Made by a program: the position numbers and the translations under genes. From a bacterium (candidate division B38) B3_B38 (GTDB lineage: Bacteria; Acidobacteriota; B3-B38; Guanabaribacteriales; B3-B38), in assembly GCA_005223145.1 (NCBI GenBank), contig NJBL01000010.1:1-46228 (forward strand): a stretch of 46,228 bases of DNA, written 5' to 3'. The stretch's first letter is position 1; every line of letters starts with the position of its first letter. The notes under the pieces are model-generated. The model made no database searches and was not told the origin of the DNA. It saw only the letters and a list, made by a program, of their open reading frames with translations. This document shows positions 943-7,414 of the stretch, in pieces.

Positions 943-973
943 TATAAGAGGGCTTTTTATGAAGGAGGGATTA

Positions 974-1594
974 ATGGCCAAGGATTTGACTGAAAAGCAG
1001 AGGCTGGTCTTCAATTTCATCAATCAGTCTATCCGGGAGAGGGGGTTCCCCCCCACGGTCAGTGAGATTCAGGCTGAATTCTCTTTCAAATCTCCCACCG
1101 GTGTAGTCAATCATTTGCGGGCGATTGCGAGGAAGGGGTATATCAGGATTCACCCTCAGGTGGCCCGGGGGATAGAGCTCCTGGTCAAGGAGAACTTGCT
1201 GGAATCCGAAGCATACAGAAGCCTTCCCCTGGTGGGGAGGATAGCCGCCGGCACGCCTGTGCTCGCCGTGGAGAACATAGAGACGAACATAGTATTTGAC
1301 AGAGATTTCTGCCGTGGGGCGAGCTTCATGCTCAGGGTCAAGGGTGACAGCATGGTCAATGCGGGGATTGTGGATGGGGATTATGTTCTGGTAAAGCAGC
1401 AATTCTCAGCAGAGAACGGGGAGATAATCGTCGCTCTGGTAGATGATGAGGCTACAGTAAAGAGATTTTTCAAGGAGAAGGGCAAGGTCACCCTCAAGCC
1501 AGAGAACGATGCCTTTCCGCCCTTGATAATAGAGCCCGGGCAGGAGGGGTTCAGAATAATAGGCAAGGTTGTCGGCTTGTACCGAGCCATTTAG
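974..1594 (+). CDS. lexA: LexA SOS repressor
   Basis: This is the SOS-response repressor, which inactivates itself when RecA filaments form on damaged DNA. In the 206-residue form, residues 1-65 form the winged helix-turn-helix domain (SEIQAEFSFKSPTGVVNHL). The cleavage site is Ala92-Gly93 within GRIAAGTP. The catalytic Ser126 lies in VKGDSM and Lys163 in EATVKRFF, so self-cleavage should be intact. ATG 974 is preferred over ATG 959 because a full AAGGAGG (962-968) sits 5 nt upstream of it; using 959 would add five residues. The gene is first in an operon with dinB and dnaE2 and lies under two operator-like boxes, so it probably controls itself and both polymerases. The sequence is complete and ordinary in length. 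Confidence 0.97.
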   Translation: MAKDLTEKQRLVFNFINQSIRERGFPPTVSEIQAEFSFKSPTGVVNHLRAIARKGYIRIHPQVARGIELLVKENLLESEAYRSLPLVGRIAAGTPVLAVENIETNIVFDRDFCRGASFMLRVKGDSMVNAGIVDGDYVLVKQQFSAENGEIIVALVDDEATVKRFFKEKGKVTLKPENDAFPPLIIEPGQEGFRIIGKVVGLYRAI

Positions 1595-1728
1595 AAAAAC
1601 GCAACGGTCTCTACTGGCTCATACCCCCTTTAAGCTCTGGGCTGTTCGAGGCTCCGGTAACATCAGCAAAAATGCAAAAGGGGGGCATCTTTCTTTAAAT
1701 AGCAGATGAAACTCGGAGGGCTTCTTTA

Positions 1729-2886
1729 ATGGCAAGAATCATCCTCCATCTTGACATGGATGCCTTTTTCGCCAATGTGGAGAGGGTTCTTAACCCTTCG
1801 CTGAAAGGCAAGCCCCTCATAGTGGGCGGCAATCCCGAGGGCAGGGGGGTGGTCTCCTCAGCCTCCTATGAAGCCAGGAAATACGGTGTCCATGCTGCCA
1901 TGCCCATGAGCAGGGCAAAGAAGCTGTGCCCTCATGCCGTATTTATAACACCTCGCCACCACTGTTATGGTGAATTCTCCGGGAGGATATACCGAATATT
2001 GAAAGACTACGCACCGCTGGTGGAGCGGGCCAGCATTGATGAGTTCTACCTCGACCTCACGGGATGTGACCGGCTTTATGGGGACATGCTCGGGCTGGCT
2101 GGCAAATTAAAAGAGGTCATCCTCAGGGAGACAGGGCTTCCCTGCACTATTGGGATAGCCAGCAACAAGCTGGTCGCCAAGATCGCCTCGAGTCAGGCAA
2201 AACCAGACGGACTCCTTCGCATCACTCCGGGAGAAGAGGCCCTTTTTCTCTCCAGACTGCCGGTAAAGGAGCTTCCCGGCATTGGTGAGAGCACACATAA
2301 GAAACTGGGGGATATGGGAATAAGAACCATCGGAGACCTGGCCAGGTTCCCCAGGAACCTTCTGGTCAGCTCCTTTGGTAAAGCTGGCGAATCCCTGTGG
2401 GAGAGAGCCAGGGGGATGGACAGGGAAGAGGTGAGGGAGCGCGGCAGACAGAAGAGCTTCAGCCAGGAGACCACCTTTGAGAAAGATTCAGAGGACCCTC
2501 TGTTTTTGAAGACCACCATCTCCCATCTGGTGGAAGAGGTCGGTTACCGGCTGAGAAAACACGGGATAAAAGCCAAGACGGTGACCCTGAAGGTCAGGTA
2601 TTCTGACTTCAGAACCATAACCCGGTCTCGAACCGGTGGTGAGGTGGATGGGGATGCCGAGATTTACCAGATAGCCAGGGAGCTGCTGAAAAAGGCTCAC
2701 ACCAGAAGGGTGAGGATAAGACTGCTCGGGATCTGCCTCTCCAACCTCACCCCGGCAGTGGCCCAGAAACAGCTCTTTGAGGATGAAAGGGAGAGGAGGA
2801 AATCCTCCCTCTACCGGAGCCTCGACCGGATAAGGGATAAATTCGGTCTGAAACTGCACTTTGGAAGTTCGATTTGGCACCAATAG
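1729..2886 (+). CDS. dinB: DNA polymerase IV (Y family, DinB type)
   Basis: This is an error-prone translesion DNA polymerase. The 385-residue protein begins with the palm motif LHLDMDAFFANVE (Asp9) and has the second catalytic motif SIDEFYLDLTG (Asp104, Glu105). All metal-binding acids are therefore present and it should be active, unlike the catalytically dead ImuB proteins found in comparable operons. A helix-hairpin-helix region (LPGIGESTHKKLGDMGI) and a little-finger domain follow. QKQLF near residues 346-350 matches the beta-clamp binding motif. The start has GGAGGG (1715-1720) 8 nt upstream. The gene is 134 bp downstream of lexA with no clear promoter between them and only 9 bp before dnaE2, which points to LexA-controlled co-expression. 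Confidence 0.95.
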   Translation: MARIILHLDMDAFFANVERVLNPSLKGKPLIVGGNPEGRGVVSSASYEARKYGVHAAMPMSRAKKLCPHAVFITPRHHCYGEFSGRIYRILKDYAPLVERASIDEFYLDLTGCDRLYGDMLGLAGKLKEVILRETGLPCTIGIASNKLVAKIASSQAKPDGLLRITPGEEALFLSRLPVKELPGIGESTHKKLGDMGIRTIGDLARFPRNLLVSSFGKAGESLWERARGMDREEVRERGRQKSFSQETTFEKDSEDPLFLKTTISHLVEEVGYRLRKHGIKAKTVTLKVRYSDFRTITRSRTGGEVDGDAEIYQIARELLKKAHTRRVRIRLLGICLSNLTPAVAQKQLFEDERERRKSSLYRSLDRIRDKFGLKLHFGSSIWHQ

Positions 2887-2895
2887 GAAAAAAAG

Positions 2896-5800
2896 ATGTT
2901 TACCCATCTTCACCTCCACTCCAACTTCTCTTTCCTCTCCTCCACCATAGACATCCCCGGATTGATAAGGGAAATCAGGCGCAAAGGGATGGACTCGGTT
3001 GCTCTCACGGATACCAACGGGATGTACGGGGTTATCCAGTTCTATAAACTCGCTAAGGAGAACGGGATAACACCGATAATCGGGGCGGAGATTGATGACC
3101 CCGCTGACAGGAATATAAAGGCGGTTCTCCTGGCGAAAAACAGGGGCGGCTACTCTGAAATCTGCCGCTTGGTCACTGAGAGACAGCTGCAAGAGGAATT
3201 CCATCTCACCGAAAGGCTGAAAAAGGCTAAGGAGGTGGTCATTCTCTCAGAGTCGCCCCATTTACTGCGAAGCCTGGCGGGTGAGCTTGAGCAAGGGACC
3301 CTTTACTGTGAGCTGACCCACCATGGGGACCGCGAGAGCAGGTTGAAGTGCCGGGGACTGCTGGAGCTATCCAGAGAGCTGGGGCTACCCGTGGCAGCTA
3401 CCAGCGATGTCCATTTCTTCCACCCCGAGGAATACCATGTGTACAGAATATTAAGAGCAATAGAAAGGAACACCACCATATCCAATCTGGACCGGGATGA
3501 GCTTGCCCACCGGAACAGCTATCTTAAATCCCCCCGGGAGATAGAGAATCTGTTCAGAGAACTCCCGGAGGCGGTGGTTAATACCCAGCTTATAAAGGAG
3601 CAATGCAATCTGGAATTGGACCTGGGGGTCTATAAGTTTCCCGGTTTTCCCTTGTCCGAGGGGGAGACGCAGGCTTCCTACCTGCGGAAGATAGCCTTCA
3701 GGGGTCTGAAAGAGCGGTACCAACCTCTGACCGGCAGGGCGGTGGAGAGGCTGGAGTATGAGCTGAAGGTGGTGGAAGCTTTGGGCTTCAGCGGATACTT
3801 CCTGGTGGTCTGGGACATCACGCAGAGGGCAAAAGAGCTGGGGATACCCTTCATCGGGAGGGGCTCGGCAGCCAACTCCATGCTCTCCTACTGTCTGGGG
3901 TTCACCGCGGTAGACCCGCTGAAATACGACCTTTATTTTGAGCGATTTCTGAACCCGGAGCGAAAATCCCCGCCCGATATCGACCTCGACTTCCCCTGGA
4001 ATGAGAGGGACAGGATTCTCAACTATGTCTATGAGAAATATGGGGAGGACAGGGTGGCTATGATCTGCACCACCAATAGATTCGCCGCCCGGTCGGCCAT
4101 AAGGGAGGTGGGCAAGGCTATGGGGTTGAGTGAAGCAGAGGTGAATGAGTTCACCTCAAGGATACCACCCTATGCCAGGGCAAGCGACCTGACCAGCCTC
4201 AAGGAGAAGTATGTGGAATGCCGACATCTGCAGACAGAAAGCGAACCGTTCAGAACCGTCCTATCCATCGGCCAGAGAATAGCTGAGTTCCCCAGACATC
4301 TCTCCATCCACTGCGGGGGCATAGTTATCTCCCCTGCTCCCATTACCGATTATGCCCCCCTGGAGAGGTCAAGCAAGGGGTTGGTGATCACTCAGTATGA
4401 TATGTTCCCTATTGAGGATTTGGGCCTGGTGAAGATCGACCTTCTGGGGAACCGCTCCCTGGCTGTGCTCATGGACACCCTGGAGTCGGTGAGAATCAAC
4501 ACCGGAAACTCAACGGATCTTTACAATTTTCCCGCTATTTTTAAGGACAGAAATGTCAGGGAGCTGATAAGAAACGGCAGGACAATGGGGTGCTTTTACA
4601 TAGAGTCACCGGCCATGAGAAGCCTGTTGAGGAAATTGAAGGTGGAGACCTTTGAGATGCTCACCGCCGCCAGCTCTGTTATCAGACCCGGGGTGGCGGA
4701 GAGCGGAATGATGAACGAATTCATAGAAAGACATCTTGACCCGGCAAAGGCTAACTATCTCCATCCAAAGCTGGAGGAACTGCTTAAGGAGACCTACGGA
4801 GTGATGGTCTATCAGGAGGATGTGATCAAGGTAGCCCACCATCTGGCTGGTATGTCCCTGGGGGAGGCAGACCTTCTGAGAAGAGCCATGAGCGGAAAGA
4901 TGAGGTCAAGGGAAGCCATGGCGGGGCTGGAGAGCAGATTTGTGTCCTCGTGCGTGGAAAGGGGAGTGGACAGAAAGGTAGCCCGGGAAGTATGGCGCCA
5001 GATTGCCAGCTTTGCCGGATACGCCTTCTGCAAGGCTCACAGCGCTTCCTTCGCCATGCTCAGCTTTCAGGTGGCTTATCTAAAGCACTATTTTCCCGCC
5101 GAGTTCATGGCGGCGGTCATCTCCAACATGGGGGGATTCTATGGCACCTACGCCTATATCCAGGAGGCAAGGAGGATGAGTCTGCAAATCCTGCCGCCCT
5201 GTGTTAATTGCAGTGAGCTCAAGTACGCCGGTCGGGGAAATCAGATCAGGGTCGGGCTGATGCAGATAAAGGGCTTGACTATGAGCTCAATACAATCGAT
5301 AGTGCAGGAACGGGAGAGAGGATGGTATAAATCCCTTTGCGATCTGATAGTGAGAACCACGGTTGGCTATGAGGAGTTGAGAAGCCTCATCAGGGTGGGG
5401 GCATACGACTGCTTCGGGAAGAGCAGACCGGAGCTTCTATGGATGCTGGATATGGAGTACACCAGGCTCCGCAGCGACCTTTCTCTTTCCCTGTTCAGAG
5501 AGGATGTATCCCCGAAAATTCCGAAAGTGGAGAATTACTCAGCCTTGGAAAAATGCCGTATAGAGTCAGAGCTGCTCGGCTTCCCCCTGACCAGACATCC
5601 TCTGGAGATTTTTCGTGATGAGATAACGGAGTGGAATCCGGTCCCGGCGGATAGGATCAGGAATTATGTAGGCAGGAGGGTCAGAATGGGGGGCTGGCTG
5701 ATAGCTGCCAAGAGGGTCAGGTGCAGAAAATCGGGGAACTACATGAAATTCATGTCCATGGAAGACCTGACCGGAACCTATGAGGTGACATTGTTTCCCA

Positions 5801-5949
5801 GGGTTTTCTCAAGATACGGACATCTCACTGTGGATAGGGGGCCATATATTTTCGAGGGGAAAGTTCAGGATGACTTCGGAGCTTGCAGCCTGATAGCTGA
5901 TAAGGTGAAGGTTCTTGAAAATGGCTTTTTTGCTAAAACTAATTTATAG
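2896..5949 (+). CDS. dnaE2: Error-prone DNA polymerase III alpha-like subunit DnaE2
   Basis: This C-family DNA polymerase is likely used for damage-induced mutagenic synthesis. The 1017-residue length and the position after lexA and a Y-family gene fit DnaE2 better than the replicative DnaE, which is usually 1100 residues or more. An N-terminal PHP domain starts at HLHLHSNFSFL. The polymerase core holds PPDIDLDF (Asp363, Asp365) and VKIDLLGNRS (Asp515), the three catalytic acids. A helix-hairpin-helix region and an OB-fold (about residues 920-990, YVGRRVRMGGWL onward) complete it. The short LSLSLF segment near residue 862 may be the clamp contact. The gene follows dinB by 9 bp with AGGA overlapping the dinB stop. 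No imuA-like gene is present in the operon. Confidence 0.92.
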   Translation: MFTHLHLHSNFSFLSSTIDIPGLIREIRRKGMDSVALTDTNGMYGVIQFYKLAKENGITPIIGAEIDDPADRNIKAVLLAKNRGGYSEICRLVTERQLQEEFHLTERLKKAKEVVILSESPHLLRSLAGELEQGTLYCELTHHGDRESRLKCRGLLELSRELGLPVAATSDVHFFHPEEYHVYRILRAIERNTTISNLDRDELAHRNSYLKSPREIENLFRELPEAVVNTQLIKEQCNLELDLGVYKFPGFPLSEGETQASYLRKIAFRGLKERYQPLTGRAVERLEYELKVVEALGFSGYFLVVWDITQRAKELGIPFIGRGSAANSMLSYCLGFTAVDPLKYDLYFERFLNPERKSPPDIDLDFPWNERDRILNYVYEKYGEDRVAMICTTNRFAARSAIREVGKAMGLSEAEVNEFTSRIPPYARASDLTSLKEKYVECRHLQTESEPFRTVLSIGQRIAEFPRHLSIHCGGIVISPAPITDYAPLERSSKGLVITQYDMFPIEDLGLVKIDLLGNRSLAVLMDTLESVRINTGNSTDLYNFPAIFKDRNVRELIRNGRTMGCFYIESPAMRSLLRKLKVETFEMLTAASSVIRPGVAESGMMNEFIERHLDPAKANYLHPKLEELLKETYGVMVYQEDVIKVAHHLAGMSLGEADLLRRAMSGKMRSREAMAGLESRFVSSCVERGVDRKVAREVWRQIASFAGYAFCKAHSASFAMLSFQVAYLKHYFPAEFMAAVISNMGGFYGTYAYIQEARRMSLQILPPCVNCSELKYAGRGNQIRVGLMQIKGLTMSSIQSIVQERERGWYKSLCDLIVRTTVGYEELRSLIRVGAYDCFGKSRPELLWMLDMEYTRLRSDLSLSLFREDVSPKIPKVENYSALEKCRIESELLGFPLTRHPLEIFRDEITEWNPVPADRIRNYVGRRVRMGGWLIAAKRVRCRKSGNYMKFMSMEDLTGTYEVTLFPRVFSRYGHLTVDRGPYIFEGKVQDDFGACSLIADKVKVLENGFFAKTNL

Positions 5950-5960
5950 TAACAAGGGGC

Positions 5961-5986
5961 AAATTTAGAAAGACCTCTCTAAATTT
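5961..5986 (+). terminator. Hairpin after dnaE2
   Basis: AAATTTAGA (5961-5969) and TCTAAATTT (5978-5986) form a perfect 9-bp stem with an 8-nt loop, 11 nt after the dnaE2 stop. The tail that follows is pyrimidine-rich but not a clean T run, so it is a weak terminator or an mRNA 3-prime stabilising hairpin. AT-rich arms make it less stable than a typical intrinsic terminator. Confidence 0.45.
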
Positions 5987-6022
5987 CTCTCCTACTTCAG
6001 CTTTAAAAGAACCTATAAAGAC

Positions 6023-6065
6023 TGCAGGGCTAAAGGAAGATTTACTTTTTTAATCTTTGCCTGCA
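6023..6065. repeat. Second inverted repeat downstream of dnaE2
   Basis: Outer arms TGCAGG (6023-6028) and CCTGCA (6060-6065) enclose inner arms AAGATT (6037-6042) and AATCTT (6052-6057) around a T-rich loop. The structure can fold on either strand. There is no T run after it on the plus strand. Its role is unknown; it may be a back-up terminator for the dnaE2 operon. Confidence 0.4.
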
Positions 6066-6124
6066 ATCATAGCACATAATCAATGTTATCTTCTACTTAG
6101 CCTTCTGTTGTACATTATTAGATA

Positions 6125-6155
6125 TTGCTCTAATACTTATTATTTATGTTATCTT
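6125..6155 (+). promoter_or_regulatory. Candidate promoter of first structured element
   Basis: An extended -10, TG-T-TATCTT (6147-6155), lies 7-10 nt before the left arm of the first structured element. The best -35, TTGCTC (6125-6130), has a long 19-bp spacer, so activity would rest on the extended -10. Predicted transcription start is about 6162. Confidence 0.4.
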
Positions 6156-6161
6156 AAACGA

Positions 6162-6255
6162 AATACCCGGAGGGAGATAAATTTTTTTCTTGCCATAAGC
6201 AAGCAAAGAAAGGGAGGGAAAAGCCACTTCTCCTCCGGGTTTCTATCTATTTTTT
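6162..6255 (+). ncRNA. Candidate small structured RNA, copy A
   Basis: A long-range stem joins ACCCGGAGG (6165-6173) to CCTCCGGGT (6232-6240) and extends by AGA/TCT past one bulged G, giving 12 bp. Inside is a hairpin, CTTGC-cataa-GCAAG (6189-6203). The closing stem is followed by a T-rich tail (6240-6255) that could serve as an intrinsic terminator. A second copy 327 nt downstream shares the left-arm core GGAGGGAGATA and the right-arm CCTCCGGGTTT while differing inside. No reading frame of note is present. It matches no riboswitch or sRNA family I recognise; a mobile palindromic element is the main alternative. Confidence 0.45.
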
Positions 6256-6445
6256 GCCCTTACTGGTAAAATCAGATAAAAATCCCTTATAGTCCGCTTA
6301 GGATGTGTGCAGAATAAACCCTCCATTTTGCTGTTGATAAAATTCCCTATTTATGATATATTGCTAAAAATATTTAATTTTCATAAATTTTAACCCTTCC
6401 GATATTAAAATGAATTTATAATATATAATATATTAAAATTATTTG
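6256..6445. other. AT-rich spacer between the two elements
   Basis: This stretch is very AT-rich, mostly runs of A and T with repeated TATA-like tracts near 6410-6440. No coding sequence, tRNA or clear repeat is visible. The composition contrasts sharply with the genes on either side and suggests a curved or easily melted promoter upstream region, or foreign DNA. Confidence 0.4.
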
Positions 6446-6474
6446 TTGACTTAATAATCAACTTATGCTATATA
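6446..6474 (+). promoter_or_regulatory. Promoter with operator-like palindrome upstream of repressor gene
   Basis: -35 TTGACT (6446-6451), 17-bp spacer and -10 TATATA (6469-6474) with an extended TG-C give a strong promoter, start near 6482. An inverted repeat GTTGA-N8-TCAAC (6445-6462) overlaps the -35 and could be the operator of the downstream XRE-type repressor. Transcription from here would include copy B of the structured element in a leader of about 220 nt. Confidence 0.6.
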
Positions 6475-6481
6475 TTATATA

Positions 6482-6578
6482 TAAACATTGAACCGGGAGG
6501 GAGATAGCTTTTATTTGTTGCCCTAAGGCGGGAAAATACAATGAAAAAGGAGAATTCTGCCTTGCCTCCGGGTTTTCA
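6482..6578 (+). ncRNA. Candidate structured leader/small RNA, copy B
   Basis: Arms AACCGGGAGG (6491-6500) and CCTCCGGGTT (6565-6574) pair at nine of ten positions. An apical hairpin TTGCC-ctaa-GGCGG (6518-6531) occupies the same place as the hairpin in copy A but uses different base pairs, which looks like compensatory change. The left-arm GGAGGGAGATA and right-arm CCTCCGGGTTT are the same as in copy A. Only four T residues follow the stem, so transcripts may read through into the repressor gene; the element could act as an attenuator-like leader or be processed out as a small RNA. Confidence 0.45.
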
Positions 6579-6700
6579 GGTAATAAGGGCTTGTTAAATA
6601 AATTCTGCTCTCATTTCCGCCTCTTAGGGTAAGACAAATTCAATTTTAGCAACAGAAATTGTAATTGTCAGGAAAAAATTTAATAAAGGTGGATTTTATT

Positions 6701-7414
6701 ATGAGTGATGTTAAAATCAGACTCCAAGAAATAGTTGGCTCCAATATCTCCAAATTTGCTCGTATGATTGGCGAAAACAGGCAGACCATAGATAATTACT
6801 TATTAGGCAGGATGCCCCGTGGAGCGTTTTTGAAAAAATTGGCAGAAAAGTTTAATATCAATATTAATTGGCTCTTAACTGGAAAAGGACCGAAAGAACT
6901 TTCGGCAGCAGTTGTGAGAGAAAAAAAAGCTCTTTACAATACTCCTGCCATAAATATCATTACCAGCCAAGAATACAAAAAGCTCCTCAAGTATCAATCC
7001 CCCGTCGAGGACTGCATACCTATACCCATAATATCAGAACCTATCGTTGCCAGTAACCCTCTATCTGTAAAAGAAAAAGATATCGAAGGCTTTGTTTTTG
7101 TCAATCAGGCGTGGCTTAAGCGAGGACACACCTATCTTTGCTTCCGAGTCCAATACAACTGCATGCATCCTGTCATTTGTGAGGGCTTTATCGTCGCCAT
7201 TGACCTCAACGAAAACGAACCCCTGAAATTGAAGCGCCAGATTGTAGCCACCCGCTTTGAAGATGGCATCTCCCTAAAATACTTGATTCTGACCGAAAAA
7301 GACTATGTACTATTACCCCATAACACGGCTGAGCATAAACCAATTGTGATACCAAGAACCGCACCAAATCCCATTATTGGCAAAGTATGCTGGTGGTGGG
7401 GCAACCAAAAATAG
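6701..7414 (+). CDS. XRE-family repressor with LexA/CI-like C-terminal domain (Cys variant)
   Basis: This 237-residue predicted DNA-binding regulator has an N-terminal helix-turn-helix (about residues 10-60, ISKFARMIGENRQTIDNYL) and a C-terminal domain laid out like S24 peptidase/CI repressors (about 105-235). The place normally held by the catalytic Ser in GDSM reads YNCM, with Cys154; the likely Lys is Lys193 in DGISLKYL. The usual Ala-Gly cleavage pair is not evident; IVASNP (near 115-120) is the nearest equivalent. ATG 6701 is chosen over TTG 6665 because AAAGGTGG (6685-6692) precedes it. A palindrome on the promoter suggests self-repression. No phage genes are nearby, so it is an orphan regulator. 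Whether it still self-cleaves is unknown. Confidence 0.8.
   Translation: MSDVKIRLQEIVGSNISKFARMIGENRQTIDNYLLGRMPRGAFLKKLAEKFNININWLLTGKGPKELSAAVVREKKALYNTPAINIITSQEYKKLLKYQSPVEDCIPIPIISEPIVASNPLSVKEKDIEGFVFVNQAWLKRGHTYLCFRVQYNCMHPVICEGFIVAIDLNENEPLKLKRQIVATRFEDGISLKYLILTEKDYVLLPHNTAEHKPIVIPRTAPNPIIGKVCWWWGNQK

Follow-up and report, generated by a model that had tools for sequence, protein, structure and literature searches.

What are the two related hairpin-forming sequences that lie between a DNA polymerase gene and a repressor gene in this genome, and do they encode an RNA? Both were located where the earlier note had put them in the window (the whole 46,228 bp stretch of DNA analysed here). 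Copy A (6164–6242) and copy B (6491–6575), neither assigned to a strand, match our covariance model R1 with 72.1 bits and 81.1 bits (E 6.8e-19) respectively. They have GGAGGGAGATA and CCTCCGGGTTT in common, in agreement with the earlier claim of a shared left-arm core and right arm. The element is an imperfect inverted repeat of ~80 bp, and in both A and B there is a closing stem (CCSGGAGG with CCTCCGGG) and an inner stem, both of them clear. The arms are CCCGGAGG (6166–6173) and CCTCCGGG (6232–6239) in copy A, and CCGGGAGG (6493–6500) and CCTCCGGG (6565–6572) in copy B. The right arm contains a conserved single-nucleotide bulge, and a GGGTTT(T) tail is present in nearly all copies.

The last gene before copy A encodes a dnaE-type DNA polymerase III alpha (2896–5949, plus strand), and is preceded by lexA (959–1594) and dinB (1729–2886). 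This run (959–5949), which comprises lexA, a dinB-type polymerase and the 1017-residue dnaE-type polymerase directly upstream of A, resembles an SOS mutagenesis cassette. Copy B lies ~126 nt upstream of the ATG (6701) of a gene for a 237-residue LexA/CI-like repressor (6701–7414, plus strand), in the repressor leader as the note had described, behind a promoter that we call P1. The repressor has helix-turn-helix (HTH) and peptidase S24 domains (Pfam PF00717 at 5e-11, with PF12844 and PF01381, HTH_19/HTH_3). Alignment shows that the usual catalytic serine of the S24 motif is a cysteine in the window repressor, a difference that may affect self-cleavage. Cysteine is also found in the repressors of G001:C112 and C140 (NCMHP or SCMHP, versus NSMHP in the C96 homologue).

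Distribution of the element family

Searches of the home genome (2.25 Mb in 102 contigs) with copy A or the two-arm pattern as queries identified two more complete elements of this pattern, on C96 and C67; by inspection and with an HMM we then recognised decayed copies on C67 and members of the family in two sister species. A covariance model built from nine copies recovered a held-out copy, G002:C76 (78.4 bits, E 3.7e-18). Copies A and B are genuine elements and not chance palindromes. The family comprises ~10 intact and 3–4 decayed copies in three species of a single genus; a covariance search of 297 genomes of the phylum gave no match in the remaining 294, and within this sample the family is confined to that genus. 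All of the significant covariance matches are at loci of HTH-S24 (LexA/CI-like) repressors.

Relatives outside this genus were not found in any of the collections searched. The element resembles Rfam small RNAs and leaders as a structured intergenic element near a promoter, but the whole window matches none of the 4227 Rfam families at the gathering threshold, and a relaxed search of 5940–6720 gave only eukaryotic matches at chance level. A literature search on the lineage and small RNAs returned nothing. The upstream regions of distant S24 homologues in G005, G012 and G057 contain no similar hairpin, and viral contigs searched with the repressor profile and the element pattern yielded no relative. 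The single viral pattern match (L079) sits where a tRNA gene apparently ends and looks like the terminator of that gene, and we therefore take it as chance. Phage and plasmid records gave one weak phage hit (24%) and no plasmid hit.

The order dnaE then copy A is syntenic in three species, and in two of these A is followed by B, the repressor and a GYD-domain gene; in the third the contig ends there. Copy A is the best-conserved hairpin across species, and in sister species G001 and G002 it is conserved far more than its flanks. The element and repressor form a unit that has been duplicated and has partly decayed. On contig C67 a repressor fragment is followed by copy F and a transposase-like ORF, after which come copies C and E and then a broken repressor gene; the interval between F and C (L010 1498–1990, equivalent to L074 about 4000–4490) contains transposase-like ORFs of the zinc-ribbon type. 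At the B, G1b_112, D and C140 loci, ~120–150 nt separate the end of the element nearest the gene from the repressor ATG, and homology extends past the repeat into P1, a second promoter (P2) and the repressor gene.

Promoters on either side of the element

The predicted promoter P1 (TTGACT-17-TGC-TATATA; 6446–6474, plus strand) reads into copy B and then the repressor gene. It is weak (score 8.4), weaker than P2, and overlaps a dyad, GTTGA-N8-TCAAC, a possible operator. P1 lies close upstream of copies B, D, F and C98; its TTGACTT and TTATGnTA segments are conserved across most non-A copies, in which it is present or partly kept, and wherever it scores above threshold its start is predicted 3–10 nt before the element. 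Of the claim that each copy begins within about 10 nt of a start site, the part concerning B holds, with a predicted start ~10 nt before it, but copy A has no promoter above threshold. P1 is likewise absent from the two orthologues of A, in which the –35/–10 region is not conserved although the hairpin is.

By far the strongest promoter is P2 (CTGACA-17-TGC-TAAAAT, with TTGACA in G001; 6643–6671, minus strand), on the strand opposite to that on which the note had read the element. P2 occupies the gap between the element and the repressor gene, close upstream of the start codon of the latter, and is oriented toward B, with the repressor behind it. Its consensus is TTGACA or CTGACA, a spacer of 17–18 nt and a TATAAT-like hexamer, mostly with an extended –10. 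An equivalent P2 is present in all eight B-type copies, 40–72 nt from the element and with scores of 11.3–15.0; the chance expectation for a promoter of this grade is ~0.05 per kb per strand. It is absent from the A-type copies and from two decayed copies (E_67 and G1b_126). Comparison of D with G001:C140 shows that the P2 boxes are retained and the spacer has diverged. The predicted overlap between the P1 and P2 starts is ~150 nt.

The P2 leader of B contains a short ORF (MRAEFI*; 6594–6614, minus strand) after a Shine-Dalgarno-like AGAGGCG. A Shine-Dalgarno sequence and short-ORF start lie 37–41 nt before the element in five P2 leaders (B, G1b_112, F_67, D_96 and G1b_126), and in four copies the ORFs are 6–12 codons long; C140, C98 and C126 lack such an ORF. 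We also compared the element interior with an inverted copy of the P2 leader, and rejected this as a general relationship since only the C_67/G1a_126 pair clearly exceeds shuffles (z about 3.3); the similarity in that pair is a lead. A coding role for the element itself was rejected, as the copies do not share a reading frame for their sense ORFs and several have no start.

RNA structure and alternative explanations

The element is an uncharacterised, lineage-specific control element, which the note had proposed to be an unknown small RNA family or leader RNA. What stands of that proposal is a conserved, promoter-associated family outside Rfam; specific evidence for a structured small RNA was not found. 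Were the copies independent small RNAs of ~90 nt that act in trans, each equipped with a promoter, a closing stem and a short U-tail, then the location of P1 directly ahead of B, D, F and the C98 copy and the near-universal GGGTTT(T) tail would be expected, as would the folding of the whole element, which in most intact copies is better than that of shuffles on at least one strand (z about –3.5 for A, but an unremarkable z of about –1 for B). However, the wobble cells (with decayed copy F left out) number 10 for G-T and 10 for A-C, so that neither strand is favoured: the sense strand has no G-T excess, and strand-specific pairing, with G-U kept and A-C avoided, is not seen. The covariance-model check that had been suggested did find homologues in three species, but covariation is not significant, with two pairs showing double changes and 228 of 500 shuffles equalling this; nine sequences from a family in only three species give the test little power. 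The interiors, where each copy was said to retain an apical hairpin made of different pairs, do fold, but on neither strand more stably than dinucleotide shuffles (z from –1.8 to +1), and this claim is not confirmed. A conserved promoter of its own, as expected of a small-RNA gene, is not found at each copy, A having none, and no copy lies away from repressor loci. There is thus no specific support for an independent small-RNA gene, and we consider it rather unlikely. The element also resembles an intrinsic terminator on the plus strand, with a G+C-rich stem followed by TTT(T), but differs in its loop of ~40 nt and short U-tail; a terminator scan that admits short loops only found none across the region, and there is no consistent terminator at the end of either strand. 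The T-rich tail of copy A, described as terminator-like, is weakly so, although the scan did not report it.

It is possible that the element acts as a leader RNA of the repressor, and a single-gene 5' leader regulator, either an attenuator or a protein- or ligand-binding leader of the repressor or P2 transcript, perhaps with a short ORF, is an explanation of low but appreciable probability. The fixed spacing from element to ATG in B, G1b_112, D and C140, the SD-ATG placed 37–41 nt ahead of the element in five P2 leaders, and the conserved bulge of the right arm fit such a leader, but strand preference is absent, C140, C98 and C126 do not have the ORF, and P2 occurs at some surface genes with no element. 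The equality of G-T and A-C cells fits constraint on both strands and also fits a palindrome acting as DNA. A role at the level of DNA with no RNA function, whether as inverted binding sites or as a stop or insulator that acts in both directions where transcripts converge, would also explain why the arms are conserved in sequence rather than covarying and why the promoterless copy A is conserved between two converging units; the conserved extra base in the right arm is awkward for a symmetric protein site, however, and P1 and P2 are conserved around most copies, and we regard this explanation as improbable. A dispersed mobile palindrome of the MITE or REP type, suggested by a multicopy inverted repeat of ~80 bp, is very improbable: every copy is at a repressor locus, which argues against scattered elements, no dispersed copies were found, the similarity between loci does not stop at the repeat but takes in P1, P2 and the repressor gene, and A is syntenic after dnaE in three species. 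The evidence for scattered mobile palindromes that the earlier note had named as refuting its idea was not found among the matches.

A putative repressor switch facing cell-surface genes

We favour, tentatively and with somewhat less than even confidence, a reading in which the hairpin occupies the overlap of converging P1 and P2 transcripts and this is the switch region between repressor and surface-gene expression. On this view LexA/CI-like repressor genes of phage origin have been duplicated, and the element is part of their regulatory region. Transcription from P1 would cross the element and continue into the repressor gene, that from the stronger P2 would cross it in the other direction, and the hairpin would lie near the 5' end of both transcripts, on opposite strands. 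Collision of transcription, antisense pairing of the 5' leaders and stopping caused by the hairpin could then oppose expression of the repressor and of the divergent gene, as in an 'excludon-like' switch or one of the phage-immunity type. The genome sequences themselves show the family and its association with repressor genes, where P1 and P2 lie, and that P2 faces surface genes in sister loci; activity of the two promoters, pairing of the RNAs, control of P1 and P2 by the repressor and the role of copy A are inferred. Copy A has lost, or never had, both promoters, and most likely persists as a hairpin that acts as a stop or insulator, separating the dnaE operon from the antisense transcript derived from B.

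In phage lambda, a strong promoter just upstream of the cI ATG fires away from the repressor (PR), and from a second, more distant promoter (PRE) transcription returns across the region to reach the repressor gene. The loci described here are similar to this immunity arrangement, with an HTH and S24 repressor, a strong divergent promoter near and upstream of its ATG, and a second promoter reading back. They differ in having the hairpin element in place of cro, with no cro-like ORF seen, and in the absence of phage genes nearby; the repressor copies are chromosomal and many are decayed. In excludons with overlapping divergent 5' leaders, a concept reviewed in PMC7154746, transcripts of opposite gene content overlap at their 5' ends, and the predicted P1 and P2 transcripts are alike in this respect; here, in contrast, the overlap is predicted from promoters alone and contains a conserved hairpin.

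The genes that P2 faces are best seen in the sister loci. P2-type promoters beside repressor genes or remnants on C67, C98, C140, C246, C97, C43 and C125 face EPS/Poly_export or OMP-like genes, encoding a CarboxypepD_reg-like protein, a beta-barrel protein and a Poly_export protein, or OMP_b-brl-like proteins. P2 is also found at several repressor remnants, and surface genes sometimes lie directly behind it with no intact element. N-terminal repressor remnants at L047, L043, L036 and L045 are kept beside a GGAGGCGGTTAAAAGG-like leader motif and, at three of the four, a P2-type promoter, both facing outer-membrane-barrel-like genes; the GGAGGCGG-type leader motif was dropped as a general mark of a regulon because it gave too few hits. 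The window lacks a minus-strand gene beyond P2: a transcript started at this promoter would cross B and then A in the direction of the dnaE end, leaving the switch incomplete at that locus.

A more elaborate version of the proposed switch is improbable as a whole: that a domesticated phage repressor and its hairpin antisense switch, having been duplicated at many loci, set exopolysaccharide and outer-membrane gene expression in this uncultivated bacterial lineage, with locus-specific interiors preventing cross-talk between paralogues. The locus illustrates how a real, conserved inverted repeat can pass for a small RNA if one strand alone is read. If the favoured reading is true, this lineage would have reused and duplicated the control region of a phage-type repressor for the regulation of cell-surface genes, and a hairpin element would sit in the overlap of the converging transcripts.
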